NCBI RefSeq assembly: GCF_014529625.1 | Contig: NZ_CP076039.1 | Location: 1,736,001 to 1,800,000, forward strand | Source: Candidatus Pelagisphaera phototrophica | Lineage (GTDB): Bacteria > Verrucomicrobiota > Verrucomicrobiia > Opitutales > Opitutaceae | DNA length: 64,000 bases | Direction: 5' to 3' | Shown: one piece after another, positions 5,027-58,166 of the stretch | How positions within the stretch are numbered: the first letter of the stretch is position 1 | Layout: each line of letters starts with the position of its first letter | Notes under the pieces: generated by a model | Told to the model about the DNA's origin: nothing | The model's database searches: none | Seen by the model: only the letters and a program-made list of their open reading frames with translations | Position numbers and translations under genes: made by a program

Positions 5027-5157
5027 GTTGAATCCGAGCATCGTGCCCGCTACCCGGCCCTACCCGCGATGCCAGAGCAACCGAACTAAATCTGTATTGG
5101 AGCCACCTGTTGGTTAAAGGGATCTATCGGAAGGGGTATTGCGTGCGTTAACCTATT

Positions 5158-5229
5158 GCAGGAGCGGCTTTACACCGCGATTTTTGGATGTTGGAGTTGA
5201 TGAGTATCGCGGTGTAAAGCCGCTCCTAC
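5158..5229. repeat. REP family 1 head-to-head pair (GTAGGAGCGGC type)
   Basis: Two 24-nt arms at 5158-5181 and 5206-5229 are inverted copies of each other with one difference (GCAGGAGCGG.. against GTAGGAGCGG.., both ending ..CACCGCGAT when read outward to inward). Each arm also has an internal small stem (GCGG..CCGC). It lies between the convergent ends of the DUF1552 gene and the lipoprotein gene, so it could also act as a bidirectional terminator-like hairpin. Related arms occur at 8066, 32935 and 58143. Confidence 0.8.
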
Positions 5230-5280
5230 GTTTAGTCCACTAAGGTGAGTATTCAAATATTTGTTGTCCCAATCAATCTT

Positions 5281-8025: not shown

Positions 8026-8089
8026 GTAAGAGCCCCGATTTGTCGGGGCGATATATGCTAACAGAATCGCGGCATGAAGCCGCTCCTAC
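8026..8089. repeat. REP pair at the 5' side of the mutarotase gene
   Basis: 8026-8052 reads GTAAGAGCCCCG..CGGGGCGAT, a hairpin with a CCCCGA/TCGGGG stem. 8066-8089 is an inverted family 1 arm (ATCGCGGCATG..GCTCCTAC). The two share the GTA(A/G)GAGC..GCGAT frame and point at each other, forming a BIME-like pair. The open frame that starts at 7971 reads through it, which argues that the true start of the mutarotase gene lies downstream. Confidence 0.75.
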
Positions 8090-8141
8090 GGGAAAAGGCA
8101 ATGATTTCCACCGTTGGGCGAGCGCTTGCTCAGTACTGCGT

Positions 8142-9160: not shown

Positions 9161-9304
9161 CGCCGAGCCCCAGCGCGGCAGCAAACGTTTGTGTTTGCCA
9201 AGCTGGGGCGTGGCGTTCGCGGAGATCGAGCTATCTATTTAGGCAGGCACCATGCCGCGTTGGTTGAGCTTCTAACGCGGACTGCCGGAACGCCAGCCCC
9301 TACC
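9161..9304. repeat. Composite hairpin repeat block between mutarotase and ABC genes
   Basis: 9161-9216 forms a long hairpin (CGCC ga GCCCCAGC ... GCTGGGGC gt GGCG, with an inner GCAAAC/GTTTGC stem). 9246-9304 contains a second structured unit: CCGCGTT ... AACGCGG around the loop GGTTGAGCTTCT, followed by GGACTGCCGG..CCAGCCCCTACC. The second unit is repeated at 13676-13734 with compensating changes in the stem. The block could attenuate transcription between the two genes (inference). Confidence 0.75.
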
Positions 9305-9374
9305 TTGGGTTGTCTCAAAGCTTGCTCTTGCCTGGCAATTTTCTGATACCCGTGACGATTTCGTTTAATCCTCT

Positions 9375-13454: not shown

Positions 13455-13948
13455 TTGAATGGTGGGGTGAGGCTATAAATGTTGTTTAAACCTGCTCTCG
13501 TGATGCGAGATCCTGTTCGCCAAGGGCGATCCCGATTGAATACATTTTGAAGCCGAGACAAGCGGTTTGTTTTAAGAGGGTTGATACTGCTTATCAGCAG
13601 TATGGAGCGATTGGCAGCAGGTTTGGTATTGAGAGGCTGTCCGGTTTTTTCGTAGCGCGGGCACCTGTGCCACGCCACGTTGGTTGAGCTTCTAGCGTGG
13701 ACTGCCGGGTCGACAGTCCCTACCCTCGGTTAAGTGCAATCGACGATCGCGTCTACAGTTTTTTCGGAAAATAGTATCCCCGAAGTAGCCTTTGGCTGAT
13801 TCTTTTATTCCGTCTTGCTCAGCGAGCGAACAAAGGATCCCGTTTATCCGGAATCAAGTTTTTTATATTGATAGATTGGTCGAACTCGAGTTCATGTTCA
13901 TCTGTCGCTCGTCGAATGAATCGATAGAGCCCAATCGGTATTAAGAAT
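13455..13948. other. Intergenic region carrying a structured repeat only
   Basis: 494 bp between the sugar-binding protein and the EF-hand gene. The supported content is the repeat at 13652-13734; I see no gene, terminator or operator in the remainder. Confidence 0.5.
13652..13734. repeat. Structured repeat, second copy of the 9246-9304 unit, plus a GTAGCGCGGGCAC hairpin
   Basis: 13652-13675 is a REP-like hairpin (GTAGCGCGGGCAC ct GTGCCACGC). 13676-13734 repeats the unit at 9246-9304: CCACGTT, the identical loop GGTTGAGCTTCT, then AGCGTGG, then GGACTG..CAGTCC and CTACC. The stem base change G to A on one side is matched by C to T on the other, so pairing is kept. Confidence 0.8.
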
Positions 13949-17315: not shown

Positions 17316-18343
17316 GTTTCGCTTATCCATGGGTTCTGCTTGTATTTCCTTTGGCGGCTTGGGTCGCATTGTGGAAATCATCTTCCACAGGTTTGACGGT
17401 TGCCTCACTCGGACAATGGGCAAATTTAGAGAAGGGACGGGCTCGGTACCTGTGGCTGCTTACCGCGTTGGAACTTCTTTTCTACGGAGGGCTGCTGATT
17501 GCGTTGGCGAGACCGCAAGCCGGATCGAGTGAATCGATTGAGGAAGCGGAGGGAATCGCGATTGAACTACTCGTAGATGTGTCGAGCAGCATGGATCGCG
17601 CGATCGACCTTCCCGGCGGAGGGAGCAAGACTAGAATGGAGATTGCCAAGGAATTGCTGGAGCAGTTCATTCTGGGGGATGGGGAGCGCCTGACGGGGCG
17701 GTCGAGTGATCTGATTGGACTGATTAGCTTTGCCCGGTATGCGGATACGCGAAGTCCCTTGACTTTTGGGCACAAAGCCTTGGCCCAAATTGTAGGGAGC
17801 CTAGAGATACAGGATCGACCCAATGAAGATGGTACCGCCTATGGGGACGCGTTGACCCTCGCTTGCGCCAGATTGGAGAATTTGGATGAACTGAAGTCTT
17901 TGAATGCCTCGCGCAAGCTCGCGGAGATCGAGAGTCGAATTGTGGTTCTGCTTACAGATGGGGAAAATAACTCTGGGAATCACTTGCCCCTTGAAGCGGC
18001 TGGGCTGGCTAAGCAGTGGGGGATCCGCGTCTACACGATTAGTCTTGGGGATGCCGGCGGGGTTCAAGGAATCGACAAGGTCTTTGAGGAGTCTGAGTTC
18101 TCTACTGCGGAACTAACGCTCCAAAGGATCAGCGATGAAACCGGTGGAGTCTTTAGGCGAGCGCCCAACTATGAGGCTCTAAAATCGATATACGAGGAGA
18201 TTGATTCCCTAGAGCGCTCGAGTATCGAAACGCGTTCCTTTGAGATCGTATCGGAATGGTATTGGCTGCCATTGACATTGGCGCTTCTTTTCTTGTGTGG
18301 GCGTATGATACTGCAAACCACTTGGCTGAGGGTCGCTTCATGA
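17312..18343 (+). CDS. batA: BatA-like membrane von Willebrand factor A protein
   Basis: A 343-aa protein with two N-terminal membrane segments, a VWA domain and a C-terminal membrane segment (WYWLPLTLALLFLCGRMIL). The MIDAS metal site is intact: DVSSS at 89-93 and LTDGENNSG further on; SPLTFG is the central threonine region. This is the size and order of BatA (Bacteroides aerotolerance) proteins, which sit in the inner membrane and work with BatB-E and a MoxR ATPase in periplasmic stress tolerance. It overlaps its neighbours on both sides by ATGA, so it belongs to a strictly coupled operon. The gene symbol follows family resemblance and gene order. Confidence 0.85.
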   Translation: MSFAYPWVLLVFPLAAWVALWKSSSTGLTVASLGQWANLEKGRARYLWLLTALELLFYGGLLIALARPQAGSSESIEEAEGIAIELLVDVSSSMDRAIDLPGGGSKTRMEIAKELLEQFILGDGERLTGRSSDLIGLISFARYADTRSPLTFGHKALAQIVGSLEIQDRPNEDGTAYGDALTLACARLENLDELKSLNASRKLAEIESRIVVLLTDGENNSGNHLPLEAAGLAKQWGIRVYTISLGDAGGVQGIDKVFEESEFSTAELTLQRISDETGGVFRRAPNYEALKSIYEEIDSLERSSIETRSFEIVSEWYWLPLTLALLFLCGRMILQTTWLRVAS

Positions 18344-20466
18344 AGGACATCGTATTTCAATGGCCCTGGTTTCTCTTTGCACTAACTGGAGTGTGGCCCT
18401 TGTGGTGGTATCTGAATTGGGCAAAGAAGAAACGCCAAGATGCTAGAGCGAAGTTGGGTCACTCCGGAGAAGTGGCGATTGAGCGTTGCGATTGGATCTG
18501 GATGGGGGTTTTTGTTCTCATCATATTTTCGCTCGCCCGACCGGGGTACGATCCAACGCGATTCTCTATTTCGCAGTCCGGTCGGGATGTCGGCTTCGTT
18601 TTGGATGTGTCGCGAAGCATGCTCGCCCAAGATGCCTATCCTACGCGACTGGAAGCGGCTAAACAAGGGATCCGGGATTGCCTAGATGGATTTGTGGGGG
18701 AAGAGGTTGGTCTAGTCATCTATGCGGGTAGTTCCTCTATTAGTTGCCCGCTAACTTCGGACTACGATTTTGTTCGCTACATGCTTTCTCAAGTCCAGCC
18801 GCGAAGTGTAGAGTTCGGTGGCACTCTGCTGCTTTCGGCGATCGAGAAATCAGTTGACCAGGTATTGGATCCGGAGCGGCGAGGATTTCAGGATCTGATT
18901 GTGCTGACCGATGGCGAGGACCATGGTCAGGGCATTGACAAGGTTGCGGAGCGCTTGAAGGAGAGTGGGGTGTTCCTGCTTGTGGTAGGAATTGGTGATT
19001 CCGTAACAGGATCCAGAATTCCGATCCTGAATGAGGAAGGGGAAAGCATTCCCTTGAAACACGAAGGACGAGTCGTTTATACAAAGCTCCACGATAGTGA
19101 GTTGGCTGAATTGGCTCGGAAAACGCCGGAAGGCGAGTTCGCCAACGTGGGGACTTTGCCCTTCCACCTGGGGGAGATCTACGAGACCTTTGCGAAGGAA
19201 AAGGAGTCGATTCGATCCGATGGCGATACGGGATACGTGGTGTATAAAGAAGCCTCTTTTCTGATTTTGCCGATCGCTCTCGTTTTGTCGCTTTGGGCTT
19301 CCGGTTTGGCGAATCTAGGAAAAGGGACGTTAGGGTTGGCGCTTTTGGTAGGAGCTTCTCTTGTCAGTGAGCCCGTTAGTGGCCAAGAAGAGCAAGAGTC
19401 GGCGAGTTTCGAAACAGCGCTGGACTGGCTGGAAGATGGAAAATTCAATGACGCAGGGGTCGCCTTTGGAGAACTGGCCTTCCAGATGGAGAGGCAAGGC
19501 GATTCTCCCGTGAATCTCGCCGCCGCGGTTTTTAATCAGGCTCTGGCGAATTTTAATCAGGTCGAAGTATTGTGGGAGAGCTCTCCGAGGGAAGCGCTTT
19601 CGTCTGCCCTTTTTGCCCAGAATCTATTGTTCCAAGCAGCCCGAATGCGCCCGGGATTTAAAAGAGCCAGTATGCGACTCGACTCACTCGCGGTGATGCT
19701 GGAGGTATTGGAAAAGCGGGTGGCTGAGGAAGAAAAGAAGGAGCAAGAAAGAGATGAAAAGATTGAGGTGCTCCTAGAGAGAATTCGAGCGCTTCTAGAA
19801 GGCCAGGCCGAGCTAAGGCGAAATGTGGAAAGTGTCGACATACAGCGACGGCCCGCGAATCGAAATGTTAGGGCGCCTTCACCTAATCCTCAAGAACCGC
19901 CGGAAAACGCGTCGATCCATGCGGTTCAGTTTGAGCAAAGTCAAAAACAGCACCGTTCCGAGGGAAAGTCGATCGAACGCTACATGATTGAGCTAGACAA
20001 TGAGTTTTCGATGGCCAGTGCGGTTGCCCAAGCAAGTGAAGGAAAGGGGTTGGAGACCATTCTCAAGCGTCCATTGGAACTAATGGGAAAGGCGTTGGGA
20101 GCGCAACTGGAGGCGGAAGAACTGCTTTCGCAATGGCGTTACTGGTCGGCAGCTCGGGCACGCCAGTCCTTAGCGATAGACCGGCTTCAGGAAATACTGG
20201 ATCTGTTTGCCTCGAATAGCGATGATGAGGGCGAAGGAGAGTGGGATGATGAAGATTGGGAGGAGTATTTGGATACGGATCCCGGGGAAGCAGTCGCTTC
20301 ATCGCTTCCAATGAAAGGGGAATTCCGGGAGGACTCCCTGATGCAGCCACTTCCAGTTCCCAACTTTTCAGCGGAAGATGTGCTCATGGAAGAAATGGGC
20401 AGTCAGCAATTTCGACAAGAACAGCGGGCAAAAGCCAATGCGGGAAAAGTGGAGAAGGACTGGTGA
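18340..20466 (+). CDS. batB: BatB-like VWA protein fused to a BatC-like TPR/coiled-coil region
   Basis: 708 aa from ATG 18340, which overlaps the batA stop; a longer open frame from 18256 is only read-through. Residues 1-70 hold two membrane segments, then a VWA domain with DVSRS at 89-93, CPLTSDYDF and VLTDGEDHG. A third hydrophobic region (ILPIALVLSLWASG and LALLVGASLV) is followed by a TPR-like region (LDWLEDGKFNDAGVAFGELAFQM), a coiled coil rich in Glu/Lys (KRVAEEEKKEQERDEKIEVL) and an acidic tail (DDEGEGEWDDEDWEEY). In Bacteroides BatB and BatC are separate genes; here they appear joined. It likely forms an inner membrane complex with BatA and the following protein. Confidence 0.85.
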   Translation: MKDIVFQWPWFLFALTGVWPLWWYLNWAKKKRQDARAKLGHSGEVAIERCDWIWMGVFVLIIFSLARPGYDPTRFSISQSGRDVGFVLDVSRSMLAQDAYPTRLEAAKQGIRDCLDGFVGEEVGLVIYAGSSSISCPLTSDYDFVRYMLSQVQPRSVEFGGTLLLSAIEKSVDQVLDPERRGFQDLIVLTDGEDHGQGIDKVAERLKESGVFLLVVGIGDSVTGSRIPILNEEGESIPLKHEGRVVYTKLHDSELAELARKTPEGEFANVGTLPFHLGEIYETFAKEKESIRSDGDTGYVVYKEASFLILPIALVLSLWASGLANLGKGTLGLALLVGASLVSEPVSGQEEQESASFETALDWLEDGKFNDAGVAFGELAFQMERQGDSPVNLAAAVFNQALANFNQVEVLWESSPREALSSALFAQNLLFQAARMRPGFKRASMRLDSLAVMLEVLEKRVAEEEKKEQERDEKIEVLLERIRALLEGQAELRRNVESVDIQRRPANRNVRAPSPNPQEPPENASIHAVQFEQSQKQHRSEGKSIERYMIELDNEFSMASAVAQASEGKGLETILKRPLELMGKALGAQLEAEELLSQWRYWSAARARQSLAIDRLQEILDLFASNSDDEGEGEWDDEDWEEYLDTDPGEAVASSLPMKGEFREDSLMQPLPVPNFSAEDVLMEEMGSQQFRQEQRAKANAGKVEKDW

Positions 20467-23150
20467 CTGCTTTCTTCAAAAAACCTTTCATGCGTGCGGG
20501 GGGCAAAACTCAGAAGCTTTTTTTAGCCTTGTTAGGTAACGGGCGACTGCCCGCCGGGCCGCATTGTTTGAGCGGCTTGTGCGGCACACCGGGCCGTCGC
20601 GCCCTACTGGCTCCAAGGATTCCTAGTGCTCTTGTGTACATTGCTTTGGCTATCAGGGTTCCGGTTGCGTTAGCCCAAGATGTTCCGGAAGCGGTCCAAG
20701 GTCCTCGTCTTCACATGATGGAAGCCAGTTGGTTTGTGGATGAGGTTTCGACTGTGCTACTCTTTGTAGATGCGAAGGTAGAGCCGATCCTCCAGCCGAT
20801 TGAGGATACAGATGAGATTCGGTTTTTGGACTCGGAGGTGATGAAACTCGAAGAGGACGAACGTGGCAGCTACGCAATGTCGGTCCGCTTTCTGCCCCTG
20901 CGAACTGGGGTGCGGGACTTCCCCTCTCTTGCGGTCGATGTGGATGGGGACGTTTTGCGATCCCTCCCGCGCCAATTGTTCGTGGGCGAACCTCATCTTT
21001 CCGATTCGATGAGCTTCATCATCGAGGCAGAGAAAACTCAGGTTTATGTGGGAGAGCCTTTGCGGTTGGATTTCATCTGGCGTTGCCAATTGCCAATGAA
21101 CCAGATGCGGGCGCTGAGCCTGTATCCAGATTTCTTTAACGATTCCGATATTGAAGTAGTTATTCCGCGAAGTGTGGTTCCGGAGGAAGAGCAGTTCGGT
21201 CTGCCAGTCGGAGGACGACGTGTGATCGCCCATCGGATTAGCGGGGAAGAGGCGTTTCCGCCCAGTTTGGGTGAATTGAGATTTTCGGTCTTCGTGAGAT
21301 TTGAGGAATCGGGGATGTTCGAGATCTTGCGAACGCGTCTGCTGTGTTCGCGACTTCTAGTTGAAAATGCCCAGTCCAATCGTTACGCCGCCTATTTCGA
21401 CAACGCCCTTTTTGAGTCCGTCGACCGCTCATTGCCCAACGAAAAGCTGCACGCATTCTCAAGCCCCATTGAGATCGAAGTGCTTCCGCTACCGAGTAAA
21501 GGAAGACTGGAATCCTTTAGCGGGCTCTTCAACGTCAATTCAATCGAGGTGAGCGTTCAACCCGCGACTGCCGAGGTAGGGCAGCTAATAGAGGTGCGTG
21601 TTGAGGTGAACTCGGATGTCTGTTCGGAAATGCTGGAGTTGCCAGATCTTAGTCGGCAAGCGTCGTTGCAAAACCGTTTTTGGGTGGGGCAGGAAGTAAA
21701 TGAAATTTGGAGGCCAAGCGGCCGCACGTTTGTCGCCCGGGCAAGGCCTCTGTCAGTTGAGTCGATCGCTTTTCCTAGTTTGGCGATACAGATCTTCGAT
21801 CCTGATGAGGCGGACTATCGCTTGATCCGTACAAGACCCGTACCCATTGAAATCTCGGCTCGAGATGGCATGAGTTACTTCCCGGTGGAGAAAATTCCTG
21901 GAGCGCAGTATTCGGTTATAGGCAGCAACGAAGGAATATGGCACAACTATGATGCGACGATTATGGGCGATGTAATGGATGAACTTGTGAACCTGCTGGC
22001 CGATGGCCTATGGGCGTTTGTTCTGCTCGGGCCCATCTTGTTTTATGGGCTCTCATTTTGGGCGCGAGAAGCGCGGCGACGCGCCATAGATGAAGCCTAT
22101 CGAATCCGTCGCGAAGCGTTCGAAAAATTTAAGCGAGCGGCGTCGAAGGGGGAAGACGATGTGGAAGCGCTCAGGGAGTTGGTCGCGGCATGCTTTGAGC
22201 GCAGGCAAGCGGCTTTGACCGCGAAGGACGTGGCGAGACTTCTCGACGCGGCCGAAGGGGAAAGGGATCTAGTAGAGGAGATTGAGGCGACCATTGGAGA
22301 AACGGATACTCGGAAGTACAATCCAGGAAAGGGCAAGCCGGGAGAACGAAAGCGAACAGGGCGGTTGGGTGAACGCGTTTTTGAGCTTTTTCAAAAAGGA
22401 CTTGTATCCGTTATCTTGATAATCGCTTTGGGTGCGGCTGAATATTCGAACGCTGCGGATTGGGACGATGCAGAAGCCCTTTTCACAGCTGCTTTGGAAT
22501 CGGCAGAGGAGGGGTTGGGTTCGGAAATGACTGAATCCAAATTTGCCGCGGCTGCTCTCGAGTTTGAAAGCTGCGCTGCGAATGGGATTAGAGCGGGTCT
22601 GTCCTGGTACAATGCGGGAAACGCCTGGTTTAAAACGGGCGAGATTGGCCGCTCGATTGCGAGTTACCGGCAAGCCCAGACGCGAATGCCCTTTGATGAG
22701 AGATTGGCGACGAGCCTTGAGGCGGCCCGAGCCCTTAGACTTGACTCGTTTTCGCATGATCGAGAATCAATAGAAACTCCGATTCGTTGGCAAAAGGCAA
22801 TGTTCTCTCTGCTTTGGCTGGTTTCGTTTGGTGTGACTTTGTTTTGGATACGATACCGGAATCGAGTTTGGCTGACGGTGTCAGGCGTGTTGTTTGGGGT
22901 GACGATAATGCAAGGACTGCTTCTGGGATGGGCTGTCGTTGCGGGACGGGATGAAGGCGTTTTGATTGTGGATGAGGTATATGGGCGAAAAGGTCCCGGG
23001 TATTCCTATTTGTCTTCATATGCCGATCCTCTGCACAATGGAATTGAGCTTTCTCTGTTGGAAGTGCGAGGAGAATGGCTCTTGGCTAGCTTGGAAGACG
23101 GTTCTGATTGCTGGCTGCCGTGCGAGACTGTGCAGATACTGGAACGGTAG
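20463..23150 (+). CDS. batD: BatD-like protein fused to BatE-like TPR and SH3 domains
   Basis: 895 aa from GTG 20463, overlapping the preceding stop (GTGA); ATG 20490 is an alternative. A hydrophobic signal (QKLFLALLGNG ... ALVYIALAIRVPVALAQ) is interrupted by about 24 residues translated from a REP-like inverted repeat. The mature part is a large beta-sandwich, BatD/oxygen-tolerance type region, then a membrane segment (LWAFVLLGPILFYGLSFWA), a charged cytoplasmic part, a second hydrophobic segment (GLVSVILIIALGAA), TPR-like repeats (AGLSWYNAGNAWFKTGEIGRSIASYRQAQ), two further membrane segments and a C-terminal bacterial SH3 domain (YGRKGPGYSYLSSYADPLHNG). TPR plus SH3 is the layout of BatE, so BatD and BatE seem fused. 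Confidence 0.82.
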   Translation: MTAFFKKPFMRAGGKTQKLFLALLGNGRLPAGPHCLSGLCGTPGRRALLAPRIPSALVYIALAIRVPVALAQDVPEAVQGPRLHMMEASWFVDEVSTVLLFVDAKVEPILQPIEDTDEIRFLDSEVMKLEEDERGSYAMSVRFLPLRTGVRDFPSLAVDVDGDVLRSLPRQLFVGEPHLSDSMSFIIEAEKTQVYVGEPLRLDFIWRCQLPMNQMRALSLYPDFFNDSDIEVVIPRSVVPEEEQFGLPVGGRRVIAHRISGEEAFPPSLGELRFSVFVRFEESGMFEILRTRLLCSRLLVENAQSNRYAAYFDNALFESVDRSLPNEKLHAFSSPIEIEVLPLPSKGRLESFSGLFNVNSIEVSVQPATAEVGQLIEVRVEVNSDVCSEMLELPDLSRQASLQNRFWVGQEVNEIWRPSGRTFVARARPLSVESIAFPSLAIQIFDPDEADYRLIRTRPVPIEISARDGMSYFPVEKIPGAQYSVIGSNEGIWHNYDATIMGDVMDELVNLLADGLWAFVLLGPILFYGLSFWAREARRRAIDEAYRIRREAFEKFKRAASKGEDDVEALRELVAACFERRQAALTAKDVARLLDAAEGERDLVEEIEATIGETDTRKYNPGKGKPGERKRTGRLGERVFELFQKGLVSVILIIALGAAEYSNAADWDDAEALFTAALESAEEGLGSEMTESKFAAAALEFESCAANGIRAGLSWYNAGNAWFKTGEIGRSIASYRQAQTRMPFDERLATSLEAARALRLDSFSHDRESIETPIRWQKAMFSLLWLVSFGVTLFWIRYRNRVWLTVSGVLFGVTIMQGLLLGWAVVAGRDEGVLIVDEVYGRKGPGYSYLSSYADPLHNGIELSLLEVRGEWLLASLEDGSDCWLPCETVQILER
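20536..20607. repeat. REP-like inverted repeat inside the batD signal-peptide coding region
   Basis: Arm 20536-20562 (GTAACGGGCGACTGCCCG..) and arm 20581-20607 (read in reverse, GTAGGGCGCGACGGCCCG..) match at 20 of 27 positions and are separated by 18 nt. The local GC content is higher than in the flanks. The reading frame stays open through it and encodes LPAGPHCLSGLCGTPGRRAL, which breaks an otherwise hydrophobic signal segment. Confidence 0.7.
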
Positions 23151-25862: not shown

Positions 25863-25938
25863 GGTAGCGGGCGATCTCCGAGCGCCCGTGGATAAGTACT
25901 ACAGTCTTAATATGGGTGCTCGGAGATCGCCCGCTACC
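25863..25938. repeat. REP family 2 head-to-head pair abutting a start codon
   Basis: Arms at 25863-25887 (GGTAGCGGGCGATCTCCGAG..) and 25914-25938 are inverted copies with 24 of 25 positions equal. The right arm ends 5 nt before the ATG of the DUF1501 gene at 25944 and occupies the space where a ribosome binding site should lie. Related single arms are at 27551, 27590 and 32978. Confidence 0.85.
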
Positions 25939-25943
25939 TTGCC

Positions 25944-27389
25944 ATGAATCCATTAATTGATTGGAAAAGACAGTTTACTCGCAGAGAGTTTTTTGGAAAG
26001 TCGGCTCAAAGCGTAGGCGCGGTGGCTCTGGCAAGTTTGCTCGATCCGAAAGCGCTAGCCCGATCTCCATCTGGGCCCCCGAGTCTCCCTCATTTTGCCC
26101 CGAAGGCAAAGCGTATCATTTATTTACTGCAGAACGGAGCCCCATCGCATGTCGACTTATTTGATCATAAGCCCATGCTGGCAAAGCTAAGAGGGGAGCC
26201 GGTTCCCGATTCGATTTTAGGGGGCAAACGCTTTAGCTCCATGACCGATACCAAGGAGAAGCTGCTCTTGCCGAATATTACTGAATTCGCCCAATATGGA
26301 AAAAGCGGTATCACTTTAGGCAGCTTTCTTCCGCATACGGCCGAGATCGTTGACGATTTGTGCTTTATCCGGTCCATGCACACGACATCGGTTAACCATG
26401 CTCCGGGCATCAATTATTTTCTTTCCGGAGCGGAGATTCCGGGCCGTCCCAGCATGGGAGCCTGGCTTAGTTATGGGCTCGGTTCGGACGCGGAAGACTT
26501 GCCTTCGTTTGTGGCTATGACCTCTCGGGACAAGGAAGCATCCTGTGGTCAGATCTTCTACGACTTCTATTGGGGCTCCGGTTTCTTGCCCACGAAATAT
26601 CAGGGCGTGAAATTTCGTGGCAGCGGAAGCCCTGTTCTGTATTTGTCAAACCCCGACGGAGTCAGTCGTGAGCTGAGGCGTAGTATGCTAGATGATCTGG
26701 AGAAGCTGAACGAGGAGAAGCTCAAAGACTATGGTGATCCGGAAATCGCGACGCGGATCTCTCAATACGAAATGGCTTACCAAATGCAAATGAGCGTTCC
26801 CGAGCTCACTGACTTTACTAGCGAATCGGAATCGACTCTCTCGATGTACGGTCCAGATGTGCATCGTCAGGGGAGTTTTGCCTACAATTGTCTAATGGCG
26901 AGAAGACTGGCGGAACGGGGTACACGTTTCATCCAGTTGATGCATGCCGGCTGGGACCAGCATAATAATTTGAACCGGCAATTGAAAGTCCAATGCATGG
27001 ATACGGATCAACCCAGTGCTGCCCTGATTAAGGATTTGAAATCACGTGGAATGCTGGATGACACCTTGGTTATTTGGGGAGGCGAGTTTGGTCGGACACC
27101 CTTTCTGCAGGGAGAGTTTGAAGACTACGCTCGCTGGGGAAGAGACCATCATCCGTATGGGTTCACCGTCTGGATGGCCGGAGGCGGAGTAAAACCTGGG
27201 ATGGTTTATGGAGCCACAGATGAATTTGGGTTCAATGCCGTGGAGGATCCGGTGCATGTGCATGACTTTCAGGCCACGATCATGCATTTGATGGGGATTG
27301 ATCACGAGCGGTTCACCTACAAGTTCCAAGGCCGCAACTATCGCTTGACCGACGTGCATGGTCAGGTGGTAAAGCCCATTTTGGCGTGA
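25944..27389 (+). CDS. DUF1501 Tat-exported protein
   Basis: A 481-aa protein. The N-terminus has a twin-arginine signal (R13-R14 in FTRREFFGKSAQS, then GAVALASLL). The DUF1501 body shows [103 protein letters not shown] and PVHVHDFQATIMHLMGIDH. The His/Asp-rich strings recall the alkaline phosphatase superfamily metal sites, but no formylglycine or Thr/Ser nucleophile is obvious and no activity is known. It follows the DUF1549-DUF1553 gene by 124 bp, unusually far because a REP pair separates them. Confidence 0.92.
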   Translation: MNPLIDWKRQFTRREFFGKSAQSVGAVALASLLDPKALARSPSGPPSLPHFAPKAKRIIYLLQNGAPSHVDLFDHKPMLAKLRGEPVPDSILGGKRFSSMTDTKEKLLLPNITEFAQYGKSGITLGSFLPHTAEIVDDLCFIRSMHTTSVNHAPGINYFLSGAEIPGRPSMGAWLSYGLGSDAEDLPSFVAMTSRDKEASCGQIFYDFYWGSGFLPTKYQGVKFRGSGSPVLYLSNPDGVSRELRRSMLDDLEKLNEEKLKDYGDPEIATRISQYEMAYQMQMSVPELTDFTSESESTLSMYGPDVHRQGSFAYNCLMARRLAERGTRFIQLMHAGWDQHNNLNRQLKVQCMDTDQPSAALIKDLKSRGMLDDTLVIWGGEFGRTPFLQGEFEDYARWGRDHHPYGFTVWMAGGGVKPGMVYGATDEFGFNAVEDPVHVHDFQATIMHLMGIDHERFTYKFQGRNYRLTDVHGQVVKPILA

Positions 27390-32808: not shown

Positions 32809-32934
32809 GACAGGTACTCCATAGGAATGTTCGGAAAATACAAAAGGAATCGACAAAGCGGATAGTAGGTGGCGTAGCAATGGCACGATGATAGGCAAGC
32901 CAATCACAGCAACGCAACCTTCGTCAACCATATC

Positions 32935-33006
32935 GTAGGAGCGGTTTTACACCGCGATCATTTTTGATTTCAAGACTGTAGGGGCGGTCGTAGATCGCTC
33001 GCTATC
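32935..33006. repeat. REP elements of families 1 and 2 side by side
   Basis: 32935-32958 is a family 1 arm (GTAGGAGCGGTTTTACACCG..). 32978-33006 (GTAGGGGCGGTCG..CTCGCTATC) is, on the reverse strand, a diverged family 2 arm (GATAGCGAGCGATCTACGAC..). They fill the 127-bp gap between the methyltransferase gene and the LarA-like gene. Confidence 0.7.
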
Positions 33007-58113: not shown

Positions 58114-58142
58114 GCATGGATAGACTAGTTGGAATGGTGCTC

Positions 58143-58166
58143 GAAGGAGCCGCTTTACGCCGCGAT
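58143..58166. repeat. Single REP family 1 arm
   Basis: GAAGGAGCCGCTTTACGCCG..AT matches the family 1 arm (GTAGGAGCGGCTTTACACCG..AT) at most positions. It stands alone in the 100-bp gap upstream of the converging end of the DUF1501 gene. Confidence 0.65.

Follow-up and report, generated by a model that had tools for sequence, protein, structure and literature searches.

The window, a 64,000-nucleotide stretch at positions 1736001-1800000 of a 4.09-Mb single-contig genome, carries a gene of 895 codons in which a palindromic repeat occupies codons 24-49, in frame. We analysed the gene and its repeat within a set of eleven genomes of the genus, G000 to G010, the window's own genome being G000. 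The features of the locus are as follows.

18256-20466, plus strand: upstream VWA-domain gene, BatB-like (PF13519, E 8.6e-14), its stop overlapping the GTG of the next gene
20451-20459, plus strand: Shine-Dalgarno-like GGAGAAGGA 5' of the GTG, read from the sequence, with a similar A/G-rich stretch in other orthologues
20463-20465, plus strand: GTG start, read from the sequence, overlapping the upstream stop at 20464-20466
20463-23150, plus strand: insert-carrying gene, an open frame of 895 codons, by position perhaps BatD/BatE-like
20517-20534, plus strand: short hydrophobic stretch LFLALL in the translation, codons 19-24, upstream of the insert
20534-20609, model consensus reading on the minus strand: degenerate head-to-head dimer of GTAG-type REPs, in frame (covariance model, 77.8 bits, the window copy being itself one of the nine model sequences)
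20536-20563: left palindrome arm, its outer end GTAA in place of GTAG
20564-20579: loop of 16 nt between the arms
20568-20570, plus strand: TTG codon of the frame within the REP loop (by codon comparison GTG in G006), a possible but unsupported internal start
20580-20607: right palindrome arm, with GTAG at its beginning on the minus strand
20631-20675, plus strand: LVYIALAIRVPVALA, codons 57-71, then Q, the best 15-residue hydrophobic stretch (Kyte-Doolittle mean 2.19)

Two VWA-domain genes precede the insert-carrying gene, and the one that overlaps it also has two sub-threshold matches, to the BatA N-terminal domain (0.002) and to NCBIfam BatB (1.5e-20). The earlier note had called the insert-carrying gene BatD-like. 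Behind that name stand gene order and weak TPR signals over residues 654-743 (TPR_2 0.0051, TPR_1 0.01, below cut-off), with no Pfam family at E ≤ 0.001, and from the position beside the VWA genes, the neighbour's sub-threshold BatA match and the sub-threshold TPR matches we describe the gene as perhaps BatD/BatE-like. That the repeat lies inside an open coding frame, as the note had also proposed, is confirmed by a frame that runs on to 23150.

The repeat consists of two 28-nt arms, in which 21 Watson-Crick and two G-U pairs form in register over the 28 positions, and the limits given by the covariance model are slightly wider than the arms. The same layout is present in the G006 copy (18 Watson-Crick and one G-U pair) and in another copy of the own genome (18 and two), and when all 72-mers of the window are ranked by Watson-Crick pairs in this arrangement of arms and loop the palindrome comes third. 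As a single strand it folds only moderately better than shuffled sequence, with 20 of 200 shuffles equally good for a 96-nt segment (z -1.31) and 3 of 200 for a 76-nt segment (z -2.36). A repeat search of the 401-bp region around the insert reported no repeat, presumably because the arms carry mismatches. Set beside the unit criterion for REPs (stem 5-13 bp, loop 2-20 nt), the dimer is seen as 28-nt arms with a 16-nt loop and not as two separate hairpins; the GTAG tag at one end of each unit is present in the consensus of the copies, AGGTAGGG...CCCTACCT, the window copy having GTAG at one end and GTAA at the other.

A dispersed family of GTAG repeats

It is the existence of a family of copies that makes the repeat more than a chance palindrome. 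By BLAST, positions 20530-20615 alone find one further copy in the own genome (78% identity over 67 bases, E 1.4e-8), and the repeat part of a 298-base query (20463-20760) is matched in congeners, at best with 84% over 64 bases (E 2.7e-13) and with weaker matches down to the cut-off of 0.01. In an alignment of nine copies, the window copy included, from which the covariance model was built, 82.6% of stem cells are paired against 32-47% for slid partners, with a shuffle mean of 79.8%, and both-side changes occur in 6 pairs against 2.5 in shuffles. The model places the family at 12 sites in the own genome at E ≤ 0.05, the insert included (22 matches with both strands counted, 150 of 332 candidates having been scored), and finds it in all eleven genomes at E ≤ 0.01, with at least 1 to at least 87 matches per genome, both strands counted, these counts being lower bounds with 150 candidates scored in each. 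Two weak members lie in the window itself.

9241-9305: weak family member, E 0.0039
13650-13725: weak family member, E 0.023

Arm pairing, dispersed copies and the covariance model thus bear out the REP-type inverted repeat that the earlier note saw at 20536-20607. The family consensus, AGGTAGGGC...GCCCTACCT, has GTAG at both outer ends and reads as a head-to-head pair of GTAG REPs.

Genes for Y1 transposases (PF01797) are present in eight of the eleven genomes, and no PF01797 match is found in G000, G006 or G009. Of eight Y1 loci searched, out of 30 matches listed, one, in G010 (L183:1800-2551), is flanked by copies of the window's repeat family, a REPtron arrangement, so that the family is seen beside a RAYT-type gene in the genus and not in the own genome. 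The likeness to RAYT/REPtron systems lies in the GTAG-tagged repeats that flank a Y1 transposase gene in this congener, and the difference in the lack of a PF01797 match in the own genome and in G006, in both of which the copies consequently look like leftovers. From this pattern it is reasonable to infer that a RAYT moved the repeat in an ancestor, and the copy in the window can probably no longer move.

Elsewhere in the window, a long palindrome containing another GTAG-tagged sequence (25865-25936, 23 of 28 Watson-Crick pairs) lies directly 5' of the ATG at 25944, where a gene begins that we take to be DUF1501-like. A separate palindromic repeat family with the core GGAGCGGCTTTACACCGCGAT is found at 5154-5230, 8063-8090, 32931-32958 and 58139-58166, and no other palindrome of that layout in the window pairs as well as the copy at 5158.

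The insert among orthologues and the start of translation

Eight of the eleven genomes have the gene with a complete N-terminus (G000, G001, G004, G006, G007, G008, G009 and G010), the nearest to the window being G006 (UBA5694, Opitutales). G003, the nearest third genome, could not be scored as its contig starts about 100 bp downstream of the insert position, and a search with the 298-base query found no further G003 piece of the 5' end; the G002 orthologue is likewise cut by a contig end, and G005 gave no match to the gene. From start to conserved motif the leader measures 87 residues in both G000 and G006, and 41 in G010, 50 in G008, 32 in G007, 48 in G004, 46 in G001 and 45 in G009. The insert residues are accordingly present in two of the eight genomes and absent from six, and the covariance model that finds the G006 copy detects nothing at the six other loci up to E 10. 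The earlier note had held that orthologues with the same residues and no repeat-like DNA would mark the stretch as ancestral coding sequence; no such orthologue was found, and the six without the repeat have the shorter leaders. In G006 the insert stands at the same codons as in G000, with no indels over the 895 codons and dS of about 0.45. Its exact boundaries cannot be read since the insert-free orthologues are only 46-58% identical. With six congeners lacking the repeat and these two genomes, the ones in which its presence is observed, sharing it at the same codons, the insertion would be older than the split of the window species from G006.

The start of the gene is conserved around the insert. 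Seven of the eight orthologues overlap the upstream stop as GTGA and the eighth (G009, with an ATG start) as TAATG, and an A/G-rich stretch before the start is common to orthologues across the genus. The conserved overlap supports the earlier contention that relocating the start would break its coupling to the preceding gene. Downstream, the insert sits between LFLALL and LVYIALAIRVPVALA, the latter having the highest Kyte-Doolittle mean in the N-terminus and being intact in both G000 and G006, and LVYIALAIRVPVALA with the following Q is the likely h-region and cleavage region of a signal peptide. The suggestion that the repeat splits a hydrophobic stretch therefore holds for about six hydrophobic residues on the upstream side and fails for the best 15-residue stretch, which is unbroken beyond it.

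Taken together, these observations make it probable, in our judgement, that a head-to-head GTAG REP dimer of the genus-wide family entered the 5' end of this gene, beside the VWA (Bat-type) genes, in an ancestor shared by the window species and G006, a RAYT-type transposase probably having carried it there. It would have landed without breaking the frame; the family consensus has no stop in three of its six frames, so that by chance alone such read-through is not rare. The ribosome would still initiate at the GTG, conserved and coupled to the stop before it, and would translate the REP into about 25 residues, GNGRLPAGPHCLSGLCGTPGRRALL; the most economical reading keeps the old start and has the REP translated as an extension of the n-region. 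The product would be a signal peptide with a long n-region, in which the hydrophobic core and an ALAQ end come after the REP and GRR from the REP adds positive charge just before the core, so that export would probably be kept. Because the best core lies wholly downstream, the REP most likely lengthens the n-region and does not destroy the signal peptide.

The substitutions that separate G000 from G006 bear on whether the REP is translated. Codons 24-49 differ by nine substitutions, five of them synonymous: the arms have six, of which only one alters a residue, and the loop has three, each of which does. Purifying selection within the insert, when tested, does not reach significance (P about 0.10 against neutrality, with nine changes), and at this level the pattern leans to coding constraint on the arms. 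In the stretches on either side of the insert dN/dS is near 1.4, from few changes, compared with 0.17 in the rest of the gene. This slight protein constraint beside the insert would suit an alternative in which the REP is in practice 5' untranslated and synthesis begins inside it, for example at the TTG at 20568, or just downstream. A start there would yield an ordinary signal peptide of about 37 residues with two arginines and the h-region, and the TTG of G000 is a GTG at the same codon in G006. The codon lies, however, inside the hairpin loop with no Shine-Dalgarno-like sequence seen before it in the window, the frame ahead of the insert is kept in both genomes, and the upstream GTG (ATG in G009), the stop overlap and the A/G-rich stretch have been retained across eight orthologues. 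An internal start is on this evidence rather unlikely, and of the two outcomes that the earlier note had offered, internal initiation or a tolerated insert, it is tolerance that is favoured, short of proof.

The repeat might otherwise act as RNA, its hairpin slowing or attenuating translation between the VWA gene and the next, as would befit a structured stretch about 70 nt after a start within a run of genes, and with 18 Watson-Crick pairs the G006 palindrome is still recognisable. Those 18 pairs are nevertheless fewer than the 21 in G000, and the six other congeners do without the repeat, which makes a regulatory hairpin very unlikely. That the stretch is ancestral coding sequence merely resembling a REP could appeal to its degeneracy and to the GTAG lost at one arm end, but is hardly credible at all and was rejected on the dispersed copies and the absence from six orthologues. 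We thus retain the translated n-region extension as the preferred reading.

Such an insert belongs to a known class, as in-frame GTAG and CGTC REP dimers encoding 20-30 residues have been published, and the same paper reports intragenic GTAG REPs as most numerous in Opitutus terrae (PMC3733652). The earlier assumption that REPs are strictly intergenic is therefore mistaken. The paper also describes N-terminal cases and DNA-repair targets, and cautions that misplaced start codons in the annotation may make many extragenic REPs look N-terminal (PMC3733652). Like the O. terrae dimers, the insert is a head-to-head GTAG palindrome in an open reading frame of a member of the Verrucomicrobiota, of about 25 residues against 20-30; unlike them as described there, its 28-nt arms merge both units into one long palindrome where the stems published for single units are 5-13 bp, and it lies in another genus at an N-terminal position checked against orthologues, the likeness being at the level of the class in a paper that has 24 families (PMC3733652). 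Rickettsia palindromic elements are similarly palindromic DNA read in frame inside unrelated proteins, but the two sources give them a length of about 150 bp and assign the intragenic RPE-4 and RPE-6 of R. conorii to the CGTC type, not GTAG (PMC10969869, PMC3733652). Searches of the open-access literature found no paper on palindromic repeats inserted in frame in a signal peptide, on a Rickettsia palindromic element in a signal peptide, or on imuB with a repetitive extragenic palindromic sequence. The kind of event has thus been described already, and the present gene is an N-terminal case in which the evidence of orthologues argues against a start that was simply misannotated. It would show, with orthologues as a check, how mobile hairpin DNA can come to form part of an export signal.

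Other frames across repeats and the ImuB linker

Reading frames were examined at 116 repeat places, a sample of the matches drawn from 100 extracted stretches together with the window and the G006 orthologue (27 in G003, 26 in G005, 24 in G007, 16 in G010, 12 in G000, 5 in G004, 4 in G006 and 2 in G002). The sample took 20 of the 38 listed places of G005 and 22 of the 24 of G007, further copies lying within the stretches, and none from G001, G008 or G009. Some open frame crosses the repeat at 110 of the 116 places, most of these frames being short; 16 translations were judged by eye, and 11 spanning frames besides the window gene were scanned against Pfam (L167, L123, L151, L084, L090, L172, L146, L173, L140, L109 and L141), with no family found in the last eight. 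Four further candidates, L116, L148, L101 and L162, were set aside as having, by eye, evident ATG starts after the repeat.

Of the spanning frames examined at these 116 places, just one besides the window gene shows homology both before and after the repeat. It belongs to an ImuB-like Y-family polymerase gene of G010, in which an IMS domain precedes the repeat, sub-threshold DNA polymerase IV matches follow it, and congeners align on both sides. Its insert is a palindrome with perfect 28-nt arms, situated in the linker. In G000 the ImuB-like gene (G000:C1:3455994-3457586, L191, with L188, L189 and L190 as the further loci of this case) has a RecA-like gene on one side and on the other a gene with PHP and DNA_pol3_alpha domains, which we take to be the imuA-imuB-dnaE2 order. 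Nine genomes could be aligned, the own genome included; G009 yielded just a C-terminal fragment, and the G007 matches were all REP-coded. In six of the nine (G000, G001, G003, G005, G006 and G010) the linker has extra residues that are absent from G002, G004 and G008.

In G000 and G003 a monomeric GTAG REP opens the extra DNA, at roughly the position that the dimer takes in G010; its stem of 9 bp is perfect and fits the unit criterion of 5-13 bp. G006 has the same monomer with ATAG for GTAG and one stem mismatch; the dimer covariance model gives no match on these ImuB monomers. With up to three mismatches the monomer pattern occurs 64 times in G001, 41 in G007, 17 in G003, four each in G000 and G009, three each in G006 and G005, twice in G004, and not at all in G002, G008 or G010, the reversed pattern giving zero in all eleven genomes. 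By eye only, the extra residues of G001 and G005 look like decayed REPs. As the G010 dimer is of another type than the monomer and stands in another frame, two insertions at this one linker are likely, though one may instead have replaced the other. A bolder proposal, that REPs serve recurrently as protein raw material in this genus, having hit the ImuB linker at least twice and supplied the basic n-region of an exported Bat-type protein, with the inserts selected and not merely tolerated, seems to us improbable. The window gene and the ImuB gene nonetheless form a small testable set, the same site being available with and without insert in related species, which bears on the question of whether REP-coded residues are neutral baggage or change the function of a protein.

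In G007 and G003 a REP is also found at the 5' end of a periplasmic binding protein frame (L151:8-1204, minus strand) and of an aldose epimerase frame (L123:1735-2892), respectively. The matches to Peripla_BP_2 and Aldose_epim begin only after the repeat, at residues 118 and 93, so the starts may lie in or after it and the two were not counted as spanning cases; the REP itself may supply their start codon and n-region.
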